Source: a virus. Taken from it: DNA of 64,000 nucleotides. Location of the stretch: IMG/VR virus record IMGVR_UViG_3300032050_000072, positions 19,618 to 83,617 of that record; one strand, written 5' to 3'. The stretch's first letter is position 1. Every line of letters starts with the position of its first letter. Below are positions 5,292 to 60,947 of the stretch, piece after piece. The notes below the pieces were generated by a model, which was given only the letters and a program-made list of their open reading frames with translations, was not told the origin of the DNA and ran no database searches. The position numbers and the translations under genes are program-made.

Positions 5292-5320
5292 AGTATATCG
5301 TCACGCTAGACCAATGTCAA
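5292..5320 (-). promoter_or_regulatory. Family promoter a (TTGACA-N17-TATACT)
   Basis: Perfect -35, 17-bp spacer and TATACT -10. The spacer carries the inverted repeat in the form TAGC-N5-GATA (one mismatch). It drives the 70-residue gene about 45 bases downstream. Confidence 0.85.
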
Positions 5321-5344: not shown

Positions 5345-5947
5345 TTATCCGCAACTTGTTGCGGGCAAGGATCGCAACAGGCTCGCGCGAACGGCATCAC
5401 GAAGCGTCGGCTTGATTTCCACGGGCAACTCGACGGGCGGCTCGATCTCCACGGGCGTCGCGTTCACGACCGGCTCAAACCGCCAGCAGAACGGCCTGAC
5501 CAGATTGCCCTTGCGATTGATAATGCAGAGCGACGGGAAGTGATTCCGATCGTTATCCAGTACACTCTTGTCGAGTGACTTCTGGAAGTCTTCGCCGAGA
5601 CGAACGAACTCGAACTCGTCGCCATTCTCGCCATAGCAGCGATCGCGATCTGTCTCTATCAGCCGCATCTTGTCGCCCGGCTTGAGCCCGTCGACCCAGC
5701 GCAGGTCTTCCGGCAGCGAGTGCAGCTTGTTCGTGTGGAACAGCGGCTCGAAGAACGATATGAAGTCTGCGAGCCAAGCCGACCATGCCGTTCCGCGTAG
5801 CGTGAAGAGAATCGTATCTTTCCCGTGACACAAATCGCGTCCGGTGACTGTCTCGATATCACCGGGCTGGCAGTCTAACAGATTCTTGATGCAGCGAATC
5901 TTGTCGCCGACCTGCAAGCGGTAGACCCAAGTTGGTATCGCGGTCAT
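5345..5947 (-). CDS. GDK-repeat protein with two beta-barrel-like units
   Basis: 200 residues. Two units of about 70 residues each open with a QVGDK or KPGDK turn followed by hydrophobic beta strands (residues about 10 and 88) and close with an aromatic/FEP motif, suggesting small SH3-like barrels; that fold is inference. The C-terminus has the shared tag (TLRDAVRASLL). It then ends in PATSCG, encoded by a copy of the 16-bp inverted repeat just before the TAA. Overlaps its upstream neighbour by ATGA. Confidence 0.85.
   Translation of the reverse strand: MTAIPTWVYRLQVGDKIRCIKNLLDCQPGDIETVTGRDLCHGKDTILFTLRGTAWSAWLADFISFFEPLFHTNKLHSLPEDLRWVDGLKPGDKMRLIETDRDRCYGENGDEFEFVRLGEDFQKSLDKSVLDNDRNHFPSLCIINRKGNLVRPFCWRFEPVVNATPVEIEPPVELPVEIKPTLRDAVRASLLRSLPATSCG
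5349..5364. repeat. Inverted repeat copy 3 (last codons of a GDK-repeat gene)
   Basis: 16-bp form encoding the C-terminal PATSCG before the stop codon. Confidence 0.95.
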
Positions 5948-6741
5948 GATTCGGTTCCTTGTAGCAGATTGCGTCGGATCGCGTCGCGGAGCGTGAGCTT
6001 TGGCTCCGGTGGCGGCTCGACGCAGGGCTTGTATCTCCAGGCACAGCCATCGAGCGACTGCCGCCGCTTGCCGTCGAGATCATTGCAGTACAGGTAGCAG
6101 TTCTTGCCATCGCCAGCCTGATCGTTGTCATCGCTCATGTAGACCGCGATCGTCCCCGGCTTGGTATTCCTCGAAAACGGCTCGACGATCACCAGCTTGT
6201 CGCCCGGCTTGATCGTGTTGAGCCATTCCAGCCCCGGCAGCGGCTTCTCGAACCGCTTCGCCGCAGGCGTCGGAACATCGGGCTTCGGCGGATCGACCGG
6301 CTCGTAAAGGTATTCAAGCAAGCTCGTGCTCACGCCGAACATGCCACGCTCGTTCTTGATCGACAAGCCTCCAGAATCGGCTTTGACAACCTCAACTGTC
6401 TCGCCGCGCTGATAGCTCGCGTGCTGCGGCTCATCAACCAGCACCCGCAGTTTGTCGCCGCTCTTGACGCTTGCAATCCAGGCCGCACGCTGATCTTCGG
6501 GAATTTTCTTGCACCAGCGGTGGTCGTACTGGGCTGGCTGGAAATGCTCGGCAGCAGAACGGCACTCGAAAACCCAAGCCTGACCCGCATCGGCACCTGG
6601 GCAACCCGTCCAGAATATGTCGTCTTCGATCAGGCCGATCGTGACGATATCGCCAGCTTTAATCGGAGCACAATTCGGATCGTCGACTAGCACGACCAGC
6701 TTCATGCCGCAGTAGATATGCTTGACCCAGCCTGGATTCAT
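5944..6741 (-). CDS. GDK-repeat protein with three units
   Basis: 265 residues; three units start near residues 5, 92 (VKSGDKLRVL) and 178 (IKPGDKLVIV). The units share a pattern of GDK turn, strand, Gly-rich turn and aromatic end with those of both neighbours. The C-terminus TLRDAIRRNLL is the shared tag. ATGA overlaps on both sides indicate translational coupling, so the three GDK proteins should be made together. Function unknown. Confidence 0.85.
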   Translation of the reverse strand: MNPGWVKHIYCGMKLVVLVDDPNCAPIKAGDIVTIGLIEDDIFWTGCPGADAGQAWVFECRSAAEHFQPAQYDHRWCKKIPEDQRAAWIASVKSGDKLRVLVDEPQHASYQRGETVEVVKADSGGLSIKNERGMFGVSTSLLEYLYEPVDPPKPDVPTPAAKRFEKPLPGLEWLNTIKPGDKLVIVEPFSRNTKPGTIAVYMSDDNDQAGDGKNCYLYCNDLDGKRRQSLDGCAWRYKPCVEPPPEPKLTLRDAIRRNLLQGTES

Positions 6742-38380: not shown

Positions 38381-38466
38381 CCGCCCATCTGGGTGATTGG
38401 TTTTTTCTCTGGCAGATTGCATGATATTCGCCAGAGGATTCGCCAACCCTGAATGGAGTAAATCTC

Positions 38467-38751
38467 ATGGTTTCCGCCGCCCCGAAAGGTCGCCGCCTCG
38501 GCTCAAAGAACAAGCCCAAGGACGTTTCACTCACGCGCGTCATCGCCGAGAACCGGGCATACGAACGCGACACGCTGCTATCAATCACCGGCATCAGCCG
38601 CCAGCTATTCGAGCAAATGAGGCGCGACGGATTGCCCGCCACGAAGCTCGGCAAGAAGACCTGGATTCTCGGCAAATACTTTCTCGCCTGGATCGACAGC
38701 CAATGCACGACCACCGCGTCTACGTCGTCGAGCCAGCCGGACGAAAACTGA
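38467..38751 (+). CDS. Small HTH protein, probable excisionase
   Basis: 94 residues, RBS GGAG eight bases before ATG. The winged-helix/HTH lies in DTLLSITGISRQLFEQMRRDG followed by TWILGKYFLAWI, as in MerR/Xis-like proteins. The N-terminus is basic (GRRLGSKNKPKD). It overlaps the integrase start by 49 bases, the usual xis-int arrangement. Confidence 0.8.
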   Translation: MVSAAPKGRRLGSKNKPKDVSLTRVIAENRAYERDTLLSITGISRQLFEQMRRDGLPATKLGKKTWILGKYFLAWIDSQCTTTASTSSSQPDEN

Positions 38752-39899
38752 TCCTCAAGTGGTTTTGCCCGCACAAGCGTCGTTGGGTGACTCGCTCGAC
38801 TCGCACGAATGATCGCAAAGAGGCGAACCGGCAGGCCCGCCAATTGCAGGCCGAGTTGATCGCCGGAACTTACACGACCGCAGGCGAAACGCCTTGGCCC
38901 GAGTTTCGTGCCGCCTATACCGAGTTCACCGTCAGCAGCGGCATGTCGCGCAATGGCAAGATCAAGGCCGAGTCGGTGCTCAATGCGGTCGAGAACATCC
39001 TTAGACCGACCACGATCGGCGACGTAGCCAGCAAACCAGCCTTGCGAAAGTTCCGCAGCGACTTTGGCGCGACGATCTCGCCTAAGACCGGCAGCACACG
39101 CTCGCCGAACACGGTTCGCTCGGCCATGCGAACCCTGATGGCAGCCTTGCGATGGGCAGCCAATGAAGCTGACATGATCGACGAGGCTCCCAAGATCGGC
39201 AAGGTCGCGGTCGATTCGGTCGACCCGATGCGTGGCAGGCCATTGAGCGAAGCCGAACTGAAAATGATGCTGGATATCATCCCGTCCGTCGTCGGCCCAT
39301 TGCGGGCAACTGAGTGGGCCAGAATCGTGAATGGGCTGGTTGCCAGTGGGCTCCGGCTCGGCGAAGCTCTCGACGCCCATTGGACCGACGACGACCGCAT
39401 CCGGCCCATTAAGACCGGCTCGTCCTGGCGACTGGTGATCCCGGCGTCGCAGCAGAAAAGCCGCCGCGATAACTCGATCCCGGTCACGCCACAGATGGCC
39501 GCGATCCTCGACGCCGAGACTGACCGCACCGGCTTCGTCTTCCGCGTGCTGAACGCCAAGCAGCAGCGACCGACACCCGACACGGCCTGCCGCACCATTA
39601 GCGAGTTCGGCAGGCGCGCATCGGTCATCGTTAAAGCCAGCGCCTCGTCGCCGCAGTATGCCACGGCCCACGACCTGAGACGGACCTGTGCCCAGCGGTT
39701 GCTGTCGGCGGGAGTTTCGCCCTTGACGGTCCAGCGGATCATGCGTCACAGTAGCCTCGCCGTCACGCTCGCCCACTACTCGCAGGCGGTCATCGAAGAC
39801 GACGCCCGTGAGTTGGAGTCGAAACTTGGTCGCACTTTTGGTCGCACTCATACCACACCACCCGATAGCGAGTCAGATAAAAATGCAGCAAGTGACTGA
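38703..39899 (+). CDS. int: Tyrosine-family integrase
   Basis: 398 residues from an internal ATG of a longer open frame. Catalytic residues in order: Arg in ASGLRLGEALD, His-Leu-Arg in AHDLRRTC, and His plus nucleophile Tyr in MRHSSLAVTLAHY. An N-terminal zinc-free arm-binding region (HKRRWVTRSTRTNDRKE) and a core-binding helical domain precede them. Its 3' end carries two GTCGCACT direct repeats, and a tRNA-Leu fragment follows 24 bases downstream. Confidence 0.93.
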   Translation: MHDHRVYVVEPAGRKLILKWFCPHKRRWVTRSTRTNDRKEANRQARQLQAELIAGTYTTAGETPWPEFRAAYTEFTVSSGMSRNGKIKAESVLNAVENILRPTTIGDVASKPALRKFRSDFGATISPKTGSTRSPNTVRSAMRTLMAALRWAANEADMIDEAPKIGKVAVDSVDPMRGRPLSEAELKMMLDIIPSVVGPLRATEWARIVNGLVASGLRLGEALDAHWTDDDRIRPIKTGSSWRLVIPASQQKSRRDNSIPVTPQMAAILDAETDRTGFVFRVLNAKQQRPTPDTACRTISEFGRRASVIVKASASSPQYATAHDLRRTCAQRLLSAGVSPLTVQRIMRHSSLAVTLAHYSQAVIEDDARELESKLGRTFGRTHTTPPDSESDKNAASD

Positions 39900-51889: not shown

Positions 51890-52747
51890 TCAGTGCTGAA
51901 AGACCGCTCCGCTCTGCATTGAAATCACAGGCTTGCCGCTGGTTCGTGCTATCACCGCCGCTGAATCGTCGTGTGACTCAATGAACAAATGGCACGGCAG
52001 GTCGCGGTAGGTTTCACCCTTCCAGCGAGCCGCCCCGTACTTGCGGCGCTCGTCTGGATCAGCGAACGGTGCCATGTGCATCCGGTCGAGCAACCGCACG
52101 CCATTGCGATCCAGCCAGCGCTCGCTCACGGCCCTCCGTGCCTCCAGCCTTCCGGTGACGATATTGCGAATTGGCACGCTCGGCAGATAGAACGGACAGG
52201 CTTGGTCGAGCGATGCCAAATAGGCCGCATCCTCGCCCGGTGAGTAGGGTGGGTCGTAGCAGAGTACGCCGTCGAAGTCGAACGCCGTGGTGGCAAGCTC
52301 GCTGTGGCCGAAGAGATTCCAGGCAAAATATCGCGGCTTCGGAATCGTCTGGTGCGTCAACACTTTGTAGTGCTCGCAATAGTCGCTGCCGTAGATTGCC
52401 GCAGGAACGTAAGCCCACGAGCCACGGCACTTGCGAGCCTCGAACGCCTGGATGGCCCGCCGCATGGCCGAGCCCGAGTGAATCGAATCGTCCAGCAGCA
52501 CGACCACACCCTCGGTCGGTCGCGCACAGTTGAACCGCTCGCCACCTTCGTGCCGCGTGAAGCCATGCTCGCAGAACTCCGGCAGCGTTACGACCGGCAG
52601 ATTCAAGTGCAGGCCGATCATTTCGGCGGGGATGTTCCCGCTGCGTGGAACCGAGACGATGCCGACGATCGCGTCTCGCCGCATCCAGGCCGAGAACTCC
52701 AAGCAGTCGCGCCAAAGCTGCGAATAGGTGACGTAGCTGATTTTCAT
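51890..52747 (-). CDS. Fusion of phosphoribosyltransferase and HAD-like domains
   Basis: 285 residues. The N-terminal half has the PRPP-binding signature VVLLDDSIHSGSAM and a VSVPRSGNIPAEMIG loop. The C-terminal half opens with FDFDGVLCYD (DxD nucleophile of HAD phosphatases), then VTGRLEARR and a late SHDDSA acidic pair. Such fusions occur beside glycan and nucleotide-sugar genes. Here it probably feeds the decoration cluster. Confidence 0.82.
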   Translation of the reverse strand: MKISYVTYSQLWRDCLEFSAWMRRDAIVGIVSVPRSGNIPAEMIGLHLNLPVVTLPEFCEHGFTRHEGGERFNCARPTEGVVVLLDDSIHSGSAMRRAIQAFEARKCRGSWAYVPAAIYGSDYCEHYKVLTHQTIPKPRYFAWNLFGHSELATTAFDFDGVLCYDPPYSPGEDAAYLASLDQACPFYLPSVPIRNIVTGRLEARRAVSERWLDRNGVRLLDRMHMAPFADPDERRKYGAARWKGETYRDLPCHLFIESHDDSAAVIARTSGKPVISMQSGAVFQH

Positions 52748-53079
52748 ACCGCAAGCCTCCTGCCGAACTTCTTATTGACAGCGGTGATCGCGAACTCCAG
52801 AAAAATATCCGCCACCACACGACCGCCGTCGTCGTTGAAGACATGCGATGGCACTTTCGTATTGACGCTCAGACAGCCCTTGCCCGAGTCGGCCAGCTTC
52901 GATCGGTAGCAGTAGCCGTTACGAAGTTCGCCGTACTCCTCGATCAGATCATCAAGCTGAATCTCAATCGCCGCCTCGATCTCGGCGCGGTCGGCGGTTT
53001 CCAGCCACTCGCCGTCGAGACTGACCTCGATCAGCAGCTTTTCGGGTCCAGTAAACCACTCGGCCTTGGTCGCTGTCAT
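52744..53079 (-). CDS. Phage protein of unknown function, 111 residues
   Basis: ATGA-coupled to both neighbours. Acidic helix-strand protein (EIEAAIEIQLDDLIEEYGE), C-terminus FAITAVNKKFGRR. Not recognised. Confidence 0.76.
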   Translation of the reverse strand: MTATKAEWFTGPEKLLIEVSLDGEWLETADRAEIEAAIEIQLDDLIEEYGELRNGYCYRSKLADSGKGCLSVNTKVPSHVFNDDGGRVVADIFLEFAITAVNKKFGRRLAV

Positions 53080-53588
53080 TTAACGCCTCGCATCCCCAGC
53101 CCCACTGGCCCGTGGTCGTAACCTCGCGGCTTGGTGAGCTTCGATCGCTGCACGAACCCGGCCCGCCGCAAGCAGTCGCCGAGATACTCCGCATCGAATG
53201 TCGCGCGGTGGTGATTCGCCAGATCGCCGTAGGCGTAGAGCCTGCCGTTGATCCACTTCATCGGGTCGCCCTCGGGATTGTCCCGTCGCCACGAATCGCC
53301 GCAGGTGCGATAGCGGTAGCACTCGACGATGTACTCGAAGTCGGGAACCCAAACCTCGATCGAGCCGCCTGGCTTGAGTATGCGGTAAGCCTCGGCCAGT
53401 GCGTCGCCGGTCTTCTGCCACGGCACATGCTCCAGCACATGACTGGCGTAGATCAAGTCGACCGAGTTGTCATCGAACGGCAGCCGATCGACGCCCCAGC
53501 AAGCCCAGTGATTCGGCGCGCCAACGCAATCAACCGACTCGAAGCCATCTAGCGGATAAGGCCCTGGCCCGATCTCAATCTGCCGCAT
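53076..53588 (-). CDS. SAM-dependent methyltransferase (class I)
   Basis: 170 residues. A compressed Methyltransf_11-type fold: QIEIGPGPYPL (SAM loop), DRLPFDDNSVDLIYASHVLEHVP (acidic strand and motif IV) and RILKPGGSIEVWVPD. Typical of sugar O-methyltransferases in glycan clusters. The target is inferred from the glycosyltransferase genes around it. Confidence 0.88.
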   Translation of the reverse strand: MRQIEIGPGPYPLDGFESVDCVGAPNHWACWGVDRLPFDDNSVDLIYASHVLEHVPWQKTGDALAEAYRILKPGGSIEVWVPDFEYIVECYRYRTCGDSWRRDNPEGDPMKWINGRLYAYGDLANHHRATFDAEYLGDCLRRAGFVQRSKLTKPRGYDHGPVGLGMRGVK

Positions 53589-53730
53589 GATCTTCCCTCC
53601 AGAAAATCGCCGCCAGCGTCCACAGCACGCTATAGGTCATCATGGCGCAGGCGTTGCTCCCGGTGGCAATGCCGCAGGACAGAGCCGCCACAAAAGAACT
53701 TATCCAGAACACAAGCATCCTTCCGTTCAT
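53575..53730 (-). CDS. Tiny membrane protein, 51 residues
   Basis: Two hydrophobic segments (LVFWISSFVAALSCGIAT and MMTYSVLWTLAAIFW). Overlaps the methyltransferase start. Unknown. Confidence 0.68.
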   Translation of the reverse strand: MNGRMLVFWISSFVAALSCGIATGSNACAMMTYSVLWTLAAIFWREDHAAD

Positions 53731-53906
53731 TCGATCACCACCGCTTCCAGAATCGCCCTGGCCTTTGGGTTTGTCCGGCCCTCTGGATGCTTGGCGTAGT
53801 AGGCACCGTCTCGAACTCCCTCGCGGTATGCCAGTCGATTGCATCGCAGCGCCGCCGCGACAACGATCGCGAACGAAACAAGAGACATCACGCAGTCCGT
53901 GTTCAT
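53727..53906 (-). CDS. Tiny membrane-anchored protein, 59 residues
   Basis: N-terminal anchor CVMSLVSFAIVVAAALRC, then a short basic/acidic tail. Coupled on both sides. Unknown. Confidence 0.68.
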   Translation of the reverse strand: MNTDCVMSLVSFAIVVAAALRCNRLAYREGVRDGAYYAKHPEGRTNPKARAILEAVVIE

Positions 53907-54925
53907 GACTCCATCAACTCCAGCCACTTGGTCGTGTGAATCTCCGGCCTGAACCGATCGGCCACGCCGTACTCGACGCGCGGCATCCAGAGTTGCATCG
54001 CCGCAGCCATCGCCTCAATGTCGCCTGGATTGACCACAACGAGGCCCTCCAGCCCGCGAAACTCTTCATAGGCAATCCCGGTCCCCGCGTAGACGATCGC
54101 CGGTCGACAGCGAGCCAGAGCCTCACAGGCCGACATGCTCAAGCCCCAGGTCTGATAGCTCGGCACGATCGCCCCAGTGCTCGCATCAAGCAGCCCAGGA
54201 ACCTTGTTCGGCCCGCTGCCTGCGACGACTTGCACCGCGTAGCCAGCCAACTCTCCAGCCCGTTCGGCGTCGCGGTGTCCGTGTCGATGCGTGAATGGTG
54301 AACTGGCGACCAAAAAGCAGGGTCGCTGCGGCATCTTGTCGGATCGCGGTCGGAAGAACCGGCTGCCGACCGGGTTGTAGACTAGGGCCAGCTTGGCACC
54401 CGGATAGTATTGCTCGCCGTCCATCAGGTCTTTGCGGCAAGTCACCGCCACATGATCGAAGCTCAGCACCGCCGCCAACTCGGCCCGCAGCCTCGCATCG
54501 CCGACAAGCTCGCTCGGAATCCGCCTGATCTTGTCGTGGGCGTAGAGTGCGTCGATCGTCTTGAGCCAGCCGAGCAATGACTCATGCAGCGTGCAGCCGA
54601 TTCGCCTAACGCAGCCCGGCCTTGACTCCCACCAACGGAGCGTCGGCTCGAAGTCTTCCAGGTGCAGAATGTCCGGCTTGATCGCCTCGCAGATCGCCCG
54701 ACACTCCTCGGCGAAGCGCCCCGACCAACGGCCCGGCTGACCCTCGCAATGATGCACGGCCAGCCCGTCGAAGTCTTGGCGAACGCCCACCTGCGGGTCG
54801 CCGGTCGTGATCGCGTGGACCTCGTGACCAAGCGATGCTAGCTCTTGCGCCCTGATCTCGCAGGTATTTTCCCGCGCCGATCGGCGGTGAGTCGTCCAGG
54901 TCGATGATACGAGTGCAATCCGCAT
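53903..54925 (-). CDS. Glycosyltransferase, GT-B fold (GT4-like)
   Basis: 340 residues, RBS GGGAG. The N-domain has ARENTCEIRAQELASLGHEVHAIT. The C-domain has ALVYNPVGSRFF, VVAGSGPN and the donor-site SYQTWGLSMSACEALAR (E-x7-E region shortened). A nucleotide-sugar donor transferase for virion glycan is likely. Confidence 0.88.
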   Translation of the reverse strand: MRIALVSSTWTTHRRSARENTCEIRAQELASLGHEVHAITTGDPQVGVRQDFDGLAVHHCEGQPGRWSGRFAEECRAICEAIKPDILHLEDFEPTLRWWESRPGCVRRIGCTLHESLLGWLKTIDALYAHDKIRRIPSELVGDARLRAELAAVLSFDHVAVTCRKDLMDGEQYYPGAKLALVYNPVGSRFFRPRSDKMPQRPCFLVASSPFTHRHGHRDAERAGELAGYAVQVVAGSGPNKVPGLLDASTGAIVPSYQTWGLSMSACEALARCRPAIVYAGTGIAYEEFRGLEGLVVVNPGDIEAMAAAMQLWMPRVEYGVADRFRPEIHTTKWLELMES

Positions 54926-54995
54926 TAGGCTCCCTTTCGTCTATCGGGAACCTAGCACGGATCGAGGAAACTCGCCCGGCACGGACCTCGCTAAC

Positions 54996-55184
54996 CTAAG
55001 CGCCAGTCTCGGGGTCGATGTCCCATTTTTTTATTTCGCCAGATCGAACACGTTCTCCAAGATCGTGCTCGTGGTCTTCGAGAATCTCGAAAATCTCGTG
55101 CTTCATCAGACCAATGCGTCGAAGCAACTCAAATTGAGCCACTATCGACTCTTCGGCTGCGAGTTGTGCCTTACCTGTACTCAT
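54996..55184 (-). CDS. Small acidic protein, 62 residues
   Basis: ATG after the leader GGAGATCAAGATA. Helical (FELLRRIGLMKHEIFEILEDHEHD). It has the leader cassette but no promoter nearby, so it depends on promoter m upstream. Confidence 0.75.
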   Translation of the reverse strand: MSTGKAQLAAEESIVAQFELLRRIGLMKHEIFEILEDHEHDLGERVRSGEIKKWDIDPETGA

Positions 55185-55222
55185 TATCTTGATCTCCGTG
55201 GTGGGTGGTGGTTGGCTGGCGG

Positions 55223-55426
55223 CTACTCGCCTCGACGCTCGCGAACCTCGCGCAGCAGGTCATAGGCCATGTCGTTCATGTGATCGAGCAGCATATCCGA
55301 GCCGCTCAGTTCGGTTTCGCTAGCACTCGCCAGTTCGCTATCACTCAGGCGTGCCAGTAGCTCCTTGAGCTTCTCGACCGTCGTCTTGTTGTCTCGTTCG
55401 TAGGCTTGAAATTTATTCTCGGACAC
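55223..55426 (-). CDS. Small helical protein, 67 residues
   Basis: GTG start after AGGAATCGAAGCC. Long charged helix (TTVEKLKELLARLSDSELASAS) then LRERRGE. No function recognised. The leader cassette without a promoter places it in the promoter-m operon. Confidence 0.74.
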   Translation of the reverse strand: MSENKFQAYERDNKTTVEKLKELLARLSDSELASASETELSGSDMLLDHMNDMAYDLLREVRERRGE

Positions 55427-55463
55427 GGCTTCGATTCCTGTTTTTGGTGGTGGTGGTTGATTT

Positions 55464-55691
55464 CTAGAACTTGTTGACGGCATACTCGGTGGCCTTGATT
55501 GCCAAAGCCTTCTGGCGGAGCTTATCGAACTTGGCTTGATCGCAGGATTCGACCTGGATGCAGAAGCCGACACATTCGCCGCTGCCGTTGAATTCAGGGC
55601 TGAACGACGGCTTGTTGTGATCGCCGAGAGCTTCGCAAATTTGAGCAGCGATTTCAGCGGTTTTGACGAAGCAGAGTCCGGTGGTTTTCAT
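55464..55691 (-). CDS. Small Cys-containing protein, 75 residues
   Basis: First gene of promoter m. Three Cys (GLCFVKTAEIAAQIC, GECVGFCIQ) and a C-terminal helix KFDKLRQKALAIK. Unknown. Confidence 0.77.
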   Translation of the reverse strand: MKTTGLCFVKTAEIAAQICEALGDHNKPSFSPEFNGSGECVGFCIQVESCDQAKFDKLRQKALAIKATEYAVNKF

Positions 55692-55732
55692 GGCTTTGAC
55701 TCTTGTTTGATTGGTGTCGTGTTGACTATCTA

Positions 55733-55761
55733 AGTATATCGGCAGGATAGACCTATGTCAA
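55733..55761 (-). promoter_or_regulatory. Family promoter m (TTGACA-N17-TATACT)
   Basis: Spacer has TATC-CTGCC-GATA, identical in that element to promoter d. Confidence 0.87.
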
Positions 55762-55797
55762 CAGTGTTTTCAAAAAAATACGAAAAATAACCGGCCA

Positions 55798-55811
55798 CGC
55801 AACTTGTTGCG
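55798..55811. repeat. Inverted repeat copy 20 (2 bases after a stop codon)
   Basis: CGCAAC-TT-GTTGCG after the sulfotransferase-like gene. Confidence 0.95.
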
Positions 55812-55813
55812 GA

Positions 55814-56440
55814 TTAGGTCCAGTGAACCATTTCTGGCTGGCAGAGTTCAGCCCATTTCTGCGAACCCTTGAGTCGATCCCACTTGAGTTCTCCGAACTG
55901 CGATAGGGCATCGTGAACCTGGGCATAGTCGCTCAGAATCTCTGGGAAGTAGACGAACCGAAACGGCACGCGATTTTCCGCCATCGCCTGCACGGCACTC
56001 AACAAGTCGCCGTTGAGCCGAGCAATCTGCTCGCCCTCGGTCGCGGTTCGCCAGTAGTCGATCGACGAAAAGAACGCCTCACGGCTCGACCTGACGGCGG
56101 CTCGAACTTCGCGGTGCGAGATCACCACCCGTAGGTCTTTGCGTAGCGTCGCCCAGACGCGCATCACACCGGGATGTCTGACGAACCTCGGGTCTTTGAC
56201 GACGCGCGGCTTGAACGCCATGATCTTCGCCGCTAGATCGCCCTCCAGGGCCTCGGCCAGCCGCCGCTGCCTGCCAAGCTCATTGATCCGGTCGTTGATC
56301 TCGACGCACTCCCGGCTCTCCCAGCCCGCGTTGATCGACTTGTCCCAGCCGCCGCCGATCCCTTTGTCGTAGCCGAGTTCGCGGCAAAGCTGAGCCAGTA
56401 GCGACGTACCGCAGCGGCCCGTTCCGGTGATGATTAGCAT
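55814..56440 (-). CDS. Sulfotransferase-like protein
   Basis: 208 residues from MLIITGTGRCGTS, the 5'-phosphosulfate loop of PAPS-dependent sulfotransferases. VVISHREVRAAVRSSREAF gives the 3'-phosphate-binding Arg/Ser region and FVYFPEIL a conserved core strand. It would transfer sulfate from PAPS to a sugar. Phage examples are uncommon. It sits next to a double glycosyltransferase gene. Confidence 0.8.
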   Translation of the reverse strand: MLIITGTGRCGTSLLAQLCRELGYDKGIGGGWDKSINAGWESRECVEINDRINELGRQRRLAEALEGDLAAKIMAFKPRVVKDPRFVRHPGVMRVWATLRKDLRVVISHREVRAAVRSSREAFFSSIDYWRTATEGEQIARLNGDLLSAVQAMAENRVPFRFVYFPEILSDYAQVHDALSQFGELKWDRLKGSQKWAELCQPEMVHWT

Positions 56441-56448
56441 GGCCCGCC

Positions 56449-58101
56449 TCAGTTGTGAGTGAACAGCGTATTCTGGACGTGAACGAGATTCTCCTCGCCG
56501 TAGCGTTCGATGATCCGTTCGATGTAGGTCCAGTCGGCGTCCTTGGCCTTGTCGAGCCAGCCCGCCTCGATCGCGACCTCGCGCTGCACCATCACGCAGC
56601 CGCAGTCGATATTGCCGTGGTGCAGGACCGATCTCAGCGGCTTCCATTGCCAGTAGTTATGCGTCATGTCGCAATAGCCACCAACCGCGCCTGGCTGCTT
56701 CTCGATCGCGTTGACCATGATGTCGCAGAAGCCCGGCGCGTAGTAGTTGTCGCCGTTCGTAATCACCACATAGTCGCCAAGCTCCATCTTGCTGACGATA
56801 TTGAGCCCAAGCTGCCGCAGCGTGTGCCCCCAGTCGTTGTACCGCTTGCGTGTCGTGTACTGGAGAATCCTCGGCTCGCAAACCCGCCGCAGCTTGGCGA
56901 CGACCGGCTCCGGCTTAACCAGCGGCCCATCGTGATAGAGCACCAGCTTCCAGTCTTTGTGCCGCTGATCCAGCAGCGACTCGATCAAGACCGGGTAATA
57001 CTCGTAGAACGGCGCAATGAACGTCACGGTTCGCCCGCGCTCGGCTGGCGATTCCAAGGCTGTGATCGGCACCGGCGTCGGCTCGTCGTGGATCGCCGCA
57101 GGCTCACTCGGCAGATCGAGTTCGTCTTCTGCGAACTTCTTCCGCTGCCTGCCTTGAGCGATCGCCGCCAGGGCCTCGATCGTTTCGCTGGTGATGTTCT
57201 GACCTCGCTCGACGGCCAGCATCGCCACTCGCTCGACGATATCAGGAAGCTCGTCGAACCGCTCGGACGGCTTGCCGTACAGTGCCGCCGCCGTGAAGCT
57301 CCGCAGGTGGATTCGACGTTCGTCCTCTTCGATCTCGCCGGTCGTTTCTTCGCCGACGATGATCGCGTTGAGACTGGCGTCTTTGAGCATTTCGTTGATG
57401 AGCACTTCCGTGTCAGCCCGCTGCGTCTCTTCGCCGGACTCCCACAGGTGCCGATAGTTATTCACCAAGCGGCGAATCGTCCAGCCCGCCTTGATCCGGT
57501 CGATCTGCGGCATGTGCCAGAGCGAAAGCGTATGCGACAGCATCCCCTGCCACCACTCGCATCCTGATCGCGGGATGCTTTGATAGCCGATCGCCGCCGC
57601 CATTTCGCGGTCACAGCGTTCAATCCATTCCTCGACAAGGTTCTGCTGCGTGACGAGGCAGTCCGAATGAACCGTGAGCATCCACTCGGTCTGCACGCAA
57701 GCCTGCCCGGCCTCCATCGCGATCGACACCAACTCGGACGAGTGTCGACCACCGTGGCAGTTGATCTGATGGACTTCGAGGTCATCGGCCCGCAGCGCCA
57801 GCACGTCGTCGAGCATCGAGTCTTGCGTGCCCGTGTCGACCACCACGATATAGACCGGCTCGGTCTGACTGCGCAGCATCGCCACACAGAGCTTGAGCAG
57901 GTCCGGCGTATTGCAATGCGGCACGACCGCCGTCACGCGATGCTGCCAAGGTTTCTTCTCGATCGCCCCTTCCCAGGGTGCCTGCGTGACAGTCGCCCGC
58001 CACGTCGCCGGACAGACAAGCTCGTCGCGGGTGAATTTGCTGTTCGGTTGCCGTGTCTGCGATAGGCGGCGATTGATCGCCTGGGAGATTTTGCGGCTCA
58101 T
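56449..58101 (-). CDS. Double glycosyltransferase (two GT2-type domains)
   Basis: 550 residues. Domain 1: VTAVVPHCNTPDLLKLCVAML, VYIVVVDTG, WMLTVHSDCL. Domain 2 from about residue 350: VTFIAPFYEYYPVLIESLLDQ, KLVLYHDGPL, YVVITNGDNYY (metal-binding D-x-D-like). A helical linker of 100 residues joins them. Bifunctional chain-building transferase is the likely role. ATGA overlap with the tail-tip gene ties decoration to tail synthesis. Confidence 0.87.
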   Translation of the reverse strand: MSRKISQAINRRLSQTRQPNSKFTRDELVCPATWRATVTQAPWEGAIEKKPWQHRVTAVVPHCNTPDLLKLCVAMLRSQTEPVYIVVVDTGTQDSMLDDVLALRADDLEVHQINCHGGRHSSELVSIAMEAGQACVQTEWMLTVHSDCLVTQQNLVEEWIERCDREMAAAIGYQSIPRSGCEWWQGMLSHTLSLWHMPQIDRIKAGWTIRRLVNNYRHLWESGEETQRADTEVLINEMLKDASLNAIIVGEETTGEIEEDERRIHLRSFTAAALYGKPSERFDELPDIVERVAMLAVERGQNITSETIEALAAIAQGRQRKKFAEDELDLPSEPAAIHDEPTPVPITALESPAERGRTVTFIAPFYEYYPVLIESLLDQRHKDWKLVLYHDGPLVKPEPVVAKLRRVCEPRILQYTTRKRYNDWGHTLRQLGLNIVSKMELGDYVVITNGDNYYAPGFCDIMVNAIEKQPGAVGGYCDMTHNYWQWKPLRSVLHHGNIDCGCVMVQREVAIEAGWLDKAKDADWTYIERIIERYGEENLVHVQNTLFTHN

Positions 58102-60947
58102 TTTTTCTGCGAGTAAACTCGGCTATTGGCGGTCATGGGCTGTCGGCACATGATGTCGAAGATACCCTCCGGCCCGCCATCCGTAACCTCGACGACCTCG
58201 CAATCGGTCAGATCGAACGGCACCTTGATCGCCACGATCGCCGTCCCGGTGAACGTCGTCTCACTGGAGCCGGATAGACCTTCGCCTAGCCACACCTTAT
58301 TAACGCCGCCGCGAACAACTTTGATCTTGAACGCACCCTGACTGACGCCGAGTGAGTTTTTCAGCAGCACGTACCTGCCGACGTGGGTTTGATCGAACGT
58401 AAAGTCGCCGGTCGTCACTGGCTTGAGCCAGTAGATATCCTTCTCGTACAGCGTCGCAGTTCCATCAACCAAGTCCCAGCCAACCGGGTTGCAGACGTGA
58501 ACATTCAGCCTCGCACAGCCTTCGACCACTTCCTCTATCGTTCGCGTGCCGCCAAAGGTTGTCGGCAGACTCCCTAAAGGCAGATCGCACGACGTAATCT
58601 CCAGCGTCCTGCCGACATCAACGGCCTTGAACGGCCTGGCTGTCGAGGTGACCCAATAGCCGCGATTCAGCACCGGATCGGCCTTGCCACCGCCAAACGG
58701 ATTCTCGGCACTCACCAAGTCGGTGTAGGTGATCTCAGCTAGTGTGTCTGTCTCGAATGTCGCGGCAAACTCATTGCCGATCTGGCCCTCGAAGTAAGAC
58801 AGCTTAACCCAGTCGCCCGGCTGGAGCTTTAGTGCCTCGTGACACGACTTGAACTTGACGTTTCGATACAGTCGCTTGTACCGCGTAAGGTAGAACTGAG
58901 CCACTGTCGAGACATGCGGAAACCTGCGATAAATCCAGAGCGGCATTTCGAGCGGCTGATTGCCGTAAGCCTGTTGCATGTCGCTATCGAACTCGATATG
59001 CGTGTTGTTCTTGTTGCCGTAGATATCATCCCACGAACGGCGGTAGGTGCCGATAATCATCGTGGTCAGTTCTTCGAGCGGCGAATCAGTGTACTCCAGC
59101 GAGTTCTCCAGAATCTTGTCGCGGTTGAAATGCACCACATGACCAGGGCTGGTGTTGCTCAGCCGCTTGATCCTGATCTTACCTTGATCGAAGAACAGCA
59201 CGCACCGGCATTGCCGCGCGATATCTTGCAGTAGAGCCAGCCCGTCGATGTTGTCGATCTGAGCAAACCCGCAGACTATCGTCGAAAGCTCACCGGCCAC
59301 GGCGTTGAAGCTCGAAGCGTCGATGAACTCATCGGCCACGGCCATCAGATTGTCGTTTTGCAGATACTCGGCAATGATGCCTGCCGGATTGGTAATCAAG
59401 TCGCCAGTGGCGTCGCCTTGATCCTCGATCCCGTCGAGCGTGACCCAAATGCGATCATCACGCAGCCCGCCCTGAGTCATACTTGGTGCCGCGTCAAATG
59501 TGATCGTGGTGATTCTGCGGCCCAGTTCGGTTTCCCAGGTGTTGTCGTTGAGATTCACCGTGTACGGGCTCGCCACGAAGTCGGTCACTTCGACCGTGCC
59601 GCTCAATTCGTCGCTCGTGATCCCGCCCAGGTAGACAAAATCCTCCCGATCGCCACCGCCCGCCCCTTTGGTCTTGCCGAAGCCCTCGACCCGCGTCACC
59701 GACTTGCTCGGCAGAGCATTGACGGCGTAAATGTACTTGCCCGGCCCGGTCGCGCCAGACACCGACCTGATCTGAGCACCCGAGTTGGCCGGTTTCTGCT
59801 GGGCGGTTGAGTTCAAAAACCTGATCGGCTGCCCAGCCGTGAAGTCGTCGCTGTGCGTGGTGAGCGTGATCTCGTAGCTGCCGACCGTGGGCGAATCGGG
59901 CGTAATCGTGGCAATCGTATCAGCGACCCACGAGCCGCCGACCAGAATTTCAACATCGGCACCAGCCGGAAAATCACTCGCCAGCGTGTTGTAGAGCCCT
60001 GCTGGCGAGATCGTGTCGGCCTGGATCACACCGCTACGAGTTGGCGAGAATCCGAATGATTGCGAAATCGTCGCGGTCGCCACAGCGGTCGCGCTGAATC
60101 CGGTGATCGTCACCGTGCTATCGGTCGTGTCCGGCGTGCCTGACGCCGAGACGTAGCCCTCGGCCTTGTCGCCATTGATCCAGATTTCAATCGGCGAACC
60201 GACCGTGCCGCCAGGAAACTCGCCGCCGATGCCGATCTCGTCGGGGTGGCTCGCGATCTGAACCGTGAACGGCGGCGAACTGCTGGCGGGAATCGGCACA
60301 GCGGTCCTCGTGCTCCACGGTGCCGAGATCAAGACCGCCTCGACTCGTTCGCACTTGCCCCACACGACCGGAACCATCTTGCCGCGCGATTCGAGTGGAC
60401 AGTTCGGAAAAATATCTTTGTCGATCCGCAGCCCGACGTTGCCCATGATCCGCCGAGAGATATCCTCCAGTGGAATCGAGATCGTGTTGTCGGCCTCCGA
60501 CCACGAATAGGGCTTGATCGCACCGGCGAAAATCAAGGCTTTGTCGTCATCCCAGACCACATCGTCTTCGTCCCACATGCGATAGATTTTGACGACCTCG
60601 CGCTGCTGCACCGCGTCGTCGAGAAAGCCGCGAATCTCGCCCAGCGTGTCTTCGAGCTTGATCGTCAGATCATCCACCGCGCCGACCTGCCCCTCGCGTA
60701 GCGACAGCTTCACGCTTCCCCAGTCGACGACTCGGCACTTGCTCAAGCCAGCGTCGTAGCCAGGGCAGCGATCCGCCGCCAGGGCGTCGAACTGCGACAG
60801 CGGACGGTCGATGTAATATCGCGTCTTGACGTAGTTCGTCTGCTTGTACGCTTCGCTGTTGACGTACCAGTCGATCTGCAAAACGAGGTAGGGCCTGCTT
60901 GATCGCTTGTTGAGTTGGCTCAAGAACGGCGTGGTGAATGTGCGCAT
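58098..60947 (-). CDS. Tail-tip / central tail hub-like protein
   Basis: 949 residues. The N-terminal 300 residues resemble tail distal or hub proteins (KLSLREGQVGAVDDLTIKLED, ISIPLEDISRRIMGN). A later segment LLQDIARQCRCVLFFDQGKIRIKRL, quoted by its landmarks LLQDIA and GKIRI, matches hub proteins of the gpJ or gp44 type. Gly/Thr/Ser-rich beta regions in the middle may be adhesion domains. Position directly after the tape measure gene fits. Confidence 0.82.
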   Translation of the reverse strand: MRTFTTPFLSQLNKRSSRPYLVLQIDWYVNSEAYKQTNYVKTRYYIDRPLSQFDALAADRCPGYDAGLSKCRVVDWGSVKLSLREGQVGAVDDLTIKLEDTLGEIRGFLDDAVQQREVVKIYRMWDEDDVVWDDDKALIFAGAIKPYSWSEADNTISIPLEDISRRIMGNVGLRIDKDIFPNCPLESRGKMVPVVWGKCERVEAVLISAPWSTRTAVPIPASSSPPFTVQIASHPDEIGIGGEFPGGTVGSPIEIWINGDKAEGYVSASGTPDTTDSTVTITGFSATAVATATISQSFGFSPTRSGVIQADTISPAGLYNTLASDFPAGADVEILVGGSWVADTIATITPDSPTVGSYEITLTTHSDDFTAGQPIRFLNSTAQQKPANSGAQIRSVSGATGPGKYIYAVNALPSKSVTRVEGFGKTKGAGGGDREDFVYLGGITSDELSGTVEVTDFVASPYTVNLNDNTWETELGRRITTITFDAAPSMTQGGLRDDRIWVTLDGIEDQGDATGDLITNPAGIIAEYLQNDNLMAVADEFIDASSFNAVAGELSTIVCGFAQIDNIDGLALLQDIARQCRCVLFFDQGKIRIKRLSNTSPGHVVHFNRDKILENSLEYTDSPLEELTTMIIGTYRRSWDDIYGNKNNTHIEFDSDMQQAYGNQPLEMPLWIYRRFPHVSTVAQFYLTRYKRLYRNVKFKSCHEALKLQPGDWVKLSYFEGQIGNEFAATFETDTLAEITYTDLVSAENPFGGGKADPVLNRGYWVTSTARPFKAVDVGRTLEITSCDLPLGSLPTTFGGTRTIEEVVEGCARLNVHVCNPVGWDLVDGTATLYEKDIYWLKPVTTGDFTFDQTHVGRYVLLKNSLGVSQGAFKIKVVRGGVNKVWLGEGLSGSSETTFTGTAIVAIKVPFDLTDCEVVEVTDGGPEGIFDIMCRQPMTANSRVYSQKK

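Follow-up and report, generated by a model that had tools for sequence, protein, structure and literature searches.

The window analysed here is a 64,000-nucleotide stretch of viral DNA (bases 19618-83617 of IMG/VR record IMGVR_UViG_3300032050_000072, which has 83,617 bases in full), and its subject is a pair of genes lying directly behind a tail-tip gene: a glycosyltransferase (GT) with two GT2 domains, which we call GT2x2, and a small sulfotransferase-like protein, ST. We conclude that ST is very probably a sulfotransferase. The leading account of the pair, which we hold tentatively, is that the two enzymes place a sulfated glycan on the phage's own tail, with the sulfate donor 3'-phosphoadenosine 5'-phosphosulfate (PAPS) supplied by the host. 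An initial annotation had described a virion decoration cluster at 51890-58101, in which this pair is followed by a second GT gene, a methyltransferase and a PRTase-HAD fusion. The gene cluster is found at these positions, all on the minus strand, and both GT genes are borne out, the first with two GT2 domains (PF00535, E 2.2e-14 over two stretches) and the second as a GT4-type enzyme (PF13439, E 2.8e-8). That observation is confirmed with corrections (a new ST start, a division into two units and a weak PRTase-HAD assignment), and its interpretation is partly supported.

The gene pair behind the tail tip

The tail-tip gene (58098..60947, minus strand) encodes a 949-aa protein resembling the central fibre J (phrog_31 'central tail fiber J', E 3.7e-7). 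Its stop codon and the start of GT2x2 (56449..58101, minus strand, 550 aa) share the sequence ATGA at 58098-58101, a gap of -4, and ST (55814..56440, minus strand, 208 aa) likely starts at the ATG at 56440, 8 nt past the GT2x2 stop. The start originally listed for ST, at 56647 (277 aa), was rejected: its first 69 residues would be read from within GT2x2 in another frame, and relatives of the protein begin near M1. The claimed coupling to the tail tip by an ATGA overlap holds for GT2x2, and for ST by way of the 8-nt gap, but not for the remaining genes, which stand behind a 122-nt gap containing a promoter.

As a whole protein GT2x2 scores 54.2 bits against PF00535, over the cut-off of 23.3 bits, and so belongs to the GT2 family; matched separately in the genome search, its N-terminal half is over the cut-off (36.4 bits) and its C-terminal half just under it (22.4 bits). 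Homologues of the two halves (36% identity for the N-terminal and 41% for the C-terminal half) are encoded by the uncultured 595-kb phage LR756511 as separate genes within a GT array, which fits consecutive steps of synthesis. The C-terminal half matched 38 loci in viral contigs, including a sister contig of the same phage. Among contexts picked by eye from 12 of 40 loci, one homologue lies directly ahead of terminase and portal genes (L038) and another shortly ahead of a major tail protein (L030). Dense runs of GT-like genes, mostly read by eye, were seen in the uncultured phages L038, L043, L060 and L035. A phmmer search of GT2x2 against the PDB gave nothing convincing.

The case for ST begins with its fold. 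Every one of the seven Foldseek hits to its AlphaFold2 model (pLDDT 74, pTM 0.76) at E<=0.001 is a tyrosylprotein sulfotransferase (TPST). In VIA-align comparisons the model aligned with TPST1/2 bound to PAP over 181 residues (Z 12.0, rmsd 3.5-3.6), with heparan 3-O-sulfotransferase at Z 11.9 and with the best non-sulfotransferase at Z 10.2. Sulfotransferases of small molecules, Stf0 and Cpz8 among them, also match the fold. Because heparan and other sulfotransferases fall within 1 Z of the TPSTs, the substrate class is not readable from the fold. The model places ST in the sulfotransferase fold; a shared fold alone shows no activity.

Conserved residues point the same way. We scanned viral contigs for DNA encoding a pattern like GTG-R-CGT-(S/T)-L and obtained 18 loci, 12 of them with ST-like genes; these come to 10 once L009/L014 and L019/L020 are merged, and one is the sister contig. 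The other six were set aside, as large GTGSCGT proteins (L011, L015, L021, L025), as an unrelated frame (L022) or for having no open reading frame (ORF) with the motif (L010). Across an alignment of 12 viral sequences, in which L009/L014 and window/sister are near-duplicates, the sole invariant positions are M1, the GTGRCGT loop, P84, R110 and S118. The scan itself required the loop in ten rows (all except window and sister), so its invariance is not independent evidence; P84, R110 and S118 were not required. Enzymes of the PAPS-dependent sulfotransferase superfamily carry a 5'-phosphosulfate loop at the N-terminus and a 3'-phosphate-binding Arg and Ser eight residues apart. ST has both features, with the loop at its N-terminus and the same Arg-to-Ser spacing of eight in 12/12 viral sequences, and R110 and S118 presumably form the 3'-phosphate site. 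Searched against the PDB with an 8-row viral profile, the only chain at E<=0.001 was 2zq5 (7.8e-4), by its entry title the sulfotransferase STF1 of M. tuberculosis, whose loop, K-x-P and R...S residues stand in register with those of ST. The PAPS-type sulfotransferase of the initial annotation is upheld as a sulfotransferase-like protein by fold, loop and R110/S118, with its start moved from 56647 to 56440 and a PF13469 match that is weak.

Relatives of ST proved hard to reach by direct searches. There was no tblastn match to ST in 50,697 phage records, 158 matched stretches in genome contigs contained no relative, and phmmer against the PDB gave nothing convincing. Three further ST queries, from L013, L018 and L024, likewise had no tblastn match in phages, and neither did the tail-tip gene or the GT4 gene among phage records.

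Comparison with the sister contig suggests that these genes are maintained. Between the two, GT2x2 differs at 71/379 synonymous and 8/1271 non-synonymous sites (pN/pS 0.034) and ST at 30/148 and 4/473 (pN/pS 0.042); the ratio is 0.07 for GT4, 0.053 for the methyltransferase (431 of 513 nt) and 0.074 for a small ORF, orf75, the comparison leaving out orf62, orf111 and PRTase-HAD. The tip and tape measure are identical in the sister and therefore give no ratio. Such values show strong purifying selection on the compared cluster genes, and the enzyme genes among them look real and in use. The sister is nucleotide-identical across the head and tail modules (14,087 bases of L066; tip and tape measure), and identity falls from 100% to about 95% at position 57991, inside GT2x2, which may reflect a recombination patch or an assembly chimera.

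Promoters, transcription units and the phage genome

A predicted phage-specific promoter of the form TTGAC-N4-GTCTAKC-N5-GATATANT lies between ST and GT4 (55733..55761, minus strand), 41 nt ahead of the next gene; the sigma-70-type match just past ST agrees at 11/12 promoter positions. The genome holds 15 exact copies, all on the minus strand, against 0 expected from 100-200 shuffles. Because the pattern was derived from its own sites, this count describes the family and is no blind test. Twelve copies are in the window (at 5320, 8593, 9000, 20760, 22189, 22510, 37897, 43344, 45563, 45959, 48525 and 55761) and three in the genomic stretch L002 (at 13978, 15525 and 15823). Thirteen of the 15 overlap no predicted gene, and eight end 41-67 nt ahead of the next called gene. 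In viral contigs the family is confined to three contigs, all of them from the window phage's own population, and at the gap between ST and GT4 the sister contig has two copies flanking an extra small gene. Generic sigma-70 sites showed no excess in a 10-kb scan (3 found vs 2.7 expected); the repeated element alone stands out. Its conserved inner GTCTA(T/G)C resembles an operator.

ST and GT4 are separated by two small ORFs and by three gaps, of 122, 279 and 70 nt, the first of which contains the promoter copy. This position assigns GT2x2 and ST to the tail genes and the genes from GT4 to PRTase-HAD to another unit. GT2x2 and ST are the only cluster genes that clearly belong to the tail operon, which we presume to be expressed late. 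A single decoration operon is rejected on account of the promoter, and the one decoration cluster of the initial annotation is split accordingly.

The second unit comprises orf75 (55464..55691, minus strand, 75 aa), which has no family match; the GT4-type glycosyltransferase (53903..54925, minus strand, 340 aa); a class I S-adenosylmethionine methyltransferase (MT; 53076..53588, minus strand, 170 aa; PF08241, E 9.2e-12; phrog_6636, E 5e-9); orf111 (52744..53079, minus strand, 111 aa), of unknown function; and a PRTase-HAD fusion (51890..52747, minus strand, 285 aa). ATGA overlaps at both ends of orf111 chain the last three together. MT had been called sugar-type; the methyltransferase stands, and no sugar specificity can be assigned to it. 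The PRTase-HAD fusion is probable and its assignment weak: the PF00156 match (E 0.027) is below cut-off, the HAD half matches phrog_415 (polynucleotide kinase; E 1.5e-4), and its AlphaFold2 model (pLDDT 35) is too poor to use. For this protein tblastn found no match in phages, the viral-contig search was unproductive and phmmer against the PDB gave nothing convincing. An NCBIfam scan gave no match over cut-off.

The first 258 bases of the record match its last 258 at 98.1%, and the join of the two ends is spanned by the sister contig L005 (IMGVR_UViG_3300032116_001055); the record is thus most simply read as the complete, circularly permuted genome of an uncultured bacterial virus. Nearly all genes are on the minus strand, and terminase, portal, protease, HK97-type capsid, head-tail adaptor, tape measure and J-like tip genes are all present, with seven tRNAs in the window. 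A tyrosine integrase of 500 aa (38397..39899; phrog_1, E 1.2e-34; PF00589, E 2.2e-14) lies on the plus strand, unlike the other large genes. A search with the integrase in genome contigs, aimed at the host, matched 74 stretches and no relative. GT2x2, at the tail tip, is not the only GT gene in a late structural module. Between capsid and head-tail adaptor there are two more: a GT2 (L002 11375-12178; PF00535, E 6.8e-7) and a GT4 (L002 9422-10516; phrog_2170, E 2.6e-25; PF13692, E 1.2e-11). Both are downstream of the three promoter copies in L002. Compared with L068 their pN/pS ratios are 0.074 and 0.076 (the latter from 639 of 1095 nt, with 10 gap positions), and that of the capsid is 0.045. 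An HNH-like ORF was also read by eye in this region (L002 9422-12178). Close to the terminase, a gene without assigned function (window 5944-6741, minus strand) evolves fast relative to L067, with 84% identity, 15 gap positions and pN/pS 0.50, compared with 0.01 for the terminase.

The initial annotation had suggested looking for PAPS synthesis genes in the rest of the genome, and none was found: APS kinase, ATP sulfurylase (PF01747) and PAPS_reduct/CysD (PF01507) are absent from the phage genome in a family search, as are the NAD epimerase and NTP_transferase families; each of these families was detected in 5 or more of 14 control genomes. PAPS and nucleotide sugars would therefore come from the host.

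Virion, host surface and other possible targets

In the scheme that we infer, from enzyme activities and late expression to the order of steps, the acceptor and the location in the virion, GT2x2 and ST would be expressed late, their translation coupled to that of the tail tip. Working in the host cytoplasm and drawing on the host's nucleotide sugars, GT2x2 would probably attach one sugar and then a second to a protein of the tail or tip, and ST would then transfer sulfate from host PAPS onto the glycan so made, leaving the released virion with a small, negatively charged sulfated glycan near its adsorption end. The products of the second unit (GT4, MT and PRTase-HAD) may lengthen the same glycan or serve another purpose. 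This account draws on the ATGA overlap and 8-nt gap within the tail module, on the GT2 and GT4 of the head module, on a related virus (L013, below) in which ST, GTs and a methyltransferase stand beside a neck gene, and on the lack of TET/JBP, thymidylate synthase and GtrA. We are more hesitant about its use, namely that a sulfated glycan or protein at the phage's own tail tip tunes adsorption or shields the tip, in place of fibre sequence, with related phages doing likewise on head or neck.

Several findings weigh against it. ST scores 23.7 bits against PF13469 (Sulfotransfer_3; E 6.5e-5), below the 27-bit cut-off, and is accordingly filed as sulfotransferase-like by fold and residues and not as a PF13469 member. 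There is a single ST model, built from an 8-row alignment, and it also resembles adenylate kinases and a sugar kinase at Z ~10, which leaves a fold margin of about 2 Z. Around the 38 loci with a C-terminal GT2 homologue, a profile search of the retrieved flanks found ST in the sister and in none of the other 37. The integrase points to a temperate phage, and the virion as target is read from gene order alone. Decoration of the virion is nonetheless favoured over its rivals.

The strongest of these, which we consider less probable though serious, is that the enzymes modify a host envelope polysaccharide, in superinfection exclusion or lysogenic conversion, with the sulfate altering a phage receptor. 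The integrase keeps lysogenic conversion and early modification of the host surface in play and, together with the two GT genes between capsid and adaptor, makes this a rival to be taken seriously. GT4, MT and PRTase-HAD stand behind a promoter common to 14 other sites, many of them before small genes, the head-module GTs are also downstream of such promoters, and in the accessible text of one study GTs near tail-fibre genes of pelagimyophages are interpreted as O-chain modifiers (PMC7029224). Against it, GT2x2 and ST are coupled to the tail tip, and GT2x2, ST, GT4 and MT have no long hydrophobic stretch (maximum KD19 1.1). No GtrA flippase (PF04138) of the gtr serotype-conversion type was found in the phage genome at E<=0.1, in a search that did not extend to O-antigen polymerase and acetylase families.

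It is improbable that ST is a true auxiliary metabolic gene acting on a small host metabolite, unrelated to the virion; the fold match to Stf0 and Cpz8 would suit such a role, but ST is closely coupled to GT2x2 and the tail tip. Slightly less probable again is direct sulfation of a tail-protein tyrosine, with the GTs acting elsewhere: the top fold matches are TPSTs, but heparan sulfate and other sulfotransferases come within 1 Z of them and the immediate neighbour of ST is GT2x2. Hypermodification of DNA bases by glycosylation and sulfation is very improbable, since, despite a C5-cytosine methylase and a second DNA methyltransferase in the genome, the genes lie in the tail region and a family search found neither Tet_JBP (a weaker negative, its control having matched in only one genome, below the cut-off) nor thymidylate synthase in the phage genome, so that neither of these two hydroxylated-base routes is seen.

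Because ST now has a defined partner and place in the tail operon, its start is corrected, its binding residues are conserved and the phage lacks a PAPS pathway of its own, sulfation of a tail glycan becomes testable; if true, this would be a phage sulfating its own surface.

Known and related systems

The initial annotation held that phage-encoded sulfation is little described. In the available part of one paper the function of phage sulfotransferases is indeed called unclear and they are listed as auxiliary metabolic genes (PMC10580990), and in the accessible text of another, Iyer et al., 2013 is the reference given for phage systems that modify nucleotides by means of GTs and sulfotransferases (PMC10829341). 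Yet sulfotransferases had been recorded in phages before, including annotated genes of cyanophages, and some of them adjoin glycosyltransferases, as in Synechococcus phage S-SRM01. Our literature search, whose coverage excluded most subscription journals, turned up no title or abstract opening that reports virion sulfation.

Synechococcus phages S-SRM01, S-SKS1 and S-SCSM1, found with the L014 gene as query and not with the window ST, encode a sulfotransferase, as the window phage very probably does. In S-SRM01 a glycosyltransferase is found two genes away and a nucleotide-sugar epimerase nearby, whereas S-SKS1 and S-SCSM1 have no annotated GT within the examined stretch. All three differ in being cyanophages of 208-241 kb, with no tail-tip coupling in these stretches. 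LR756511 differs in having no sulfotransferase by eye in a 16.7-kb stretch.

Uncultured virus L013 (IMGVR_UViG_3300017971_000310) has, like the window, a GT2 (phrog_2456), an ST, a GT (phrog_2170) and a methyltransferase (phrog_6636) in one run; phrog_6636 is the best PHROG of both methyltransferases, and the L013 ST is over the PF13469 cut-off (2.1e-25). Its run differs in adjoining a neck gene, at head-neck and not at the tail tip, and includes an epimerase-like gene read by eye. Elsewhere, L018 has a GtrB-like GT and a pair of ST-like genes near the terminase, L016 has a pair near the major head protein (in both, the second ST-like gene was read by eye), and L023 has a single one near a major head protein, its capsid gene lying on the other strand. 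These four loci, L013 included, were picked by eye, so that the presence of a gene for head, neck or packaging at 4/4 is no frequency. In L014 the one profiled neighbour of the ST-like gene is of unknown function.

Finally, mycobacteriophages are reported to carry glycans on capsid and tail-tube subunits (Freeman et al., 2023, as described in the accessible parts of PMC12619734 and PMC11256854). Their glycosylated virions depend, like our proposal for the window phage, on phage-encoded GTs. The systems differ in that those parts of the two papers mention no sulfotransferase, whereas in the window phage an ST stands beside a GT2x2 that is coupled to the tail tip.

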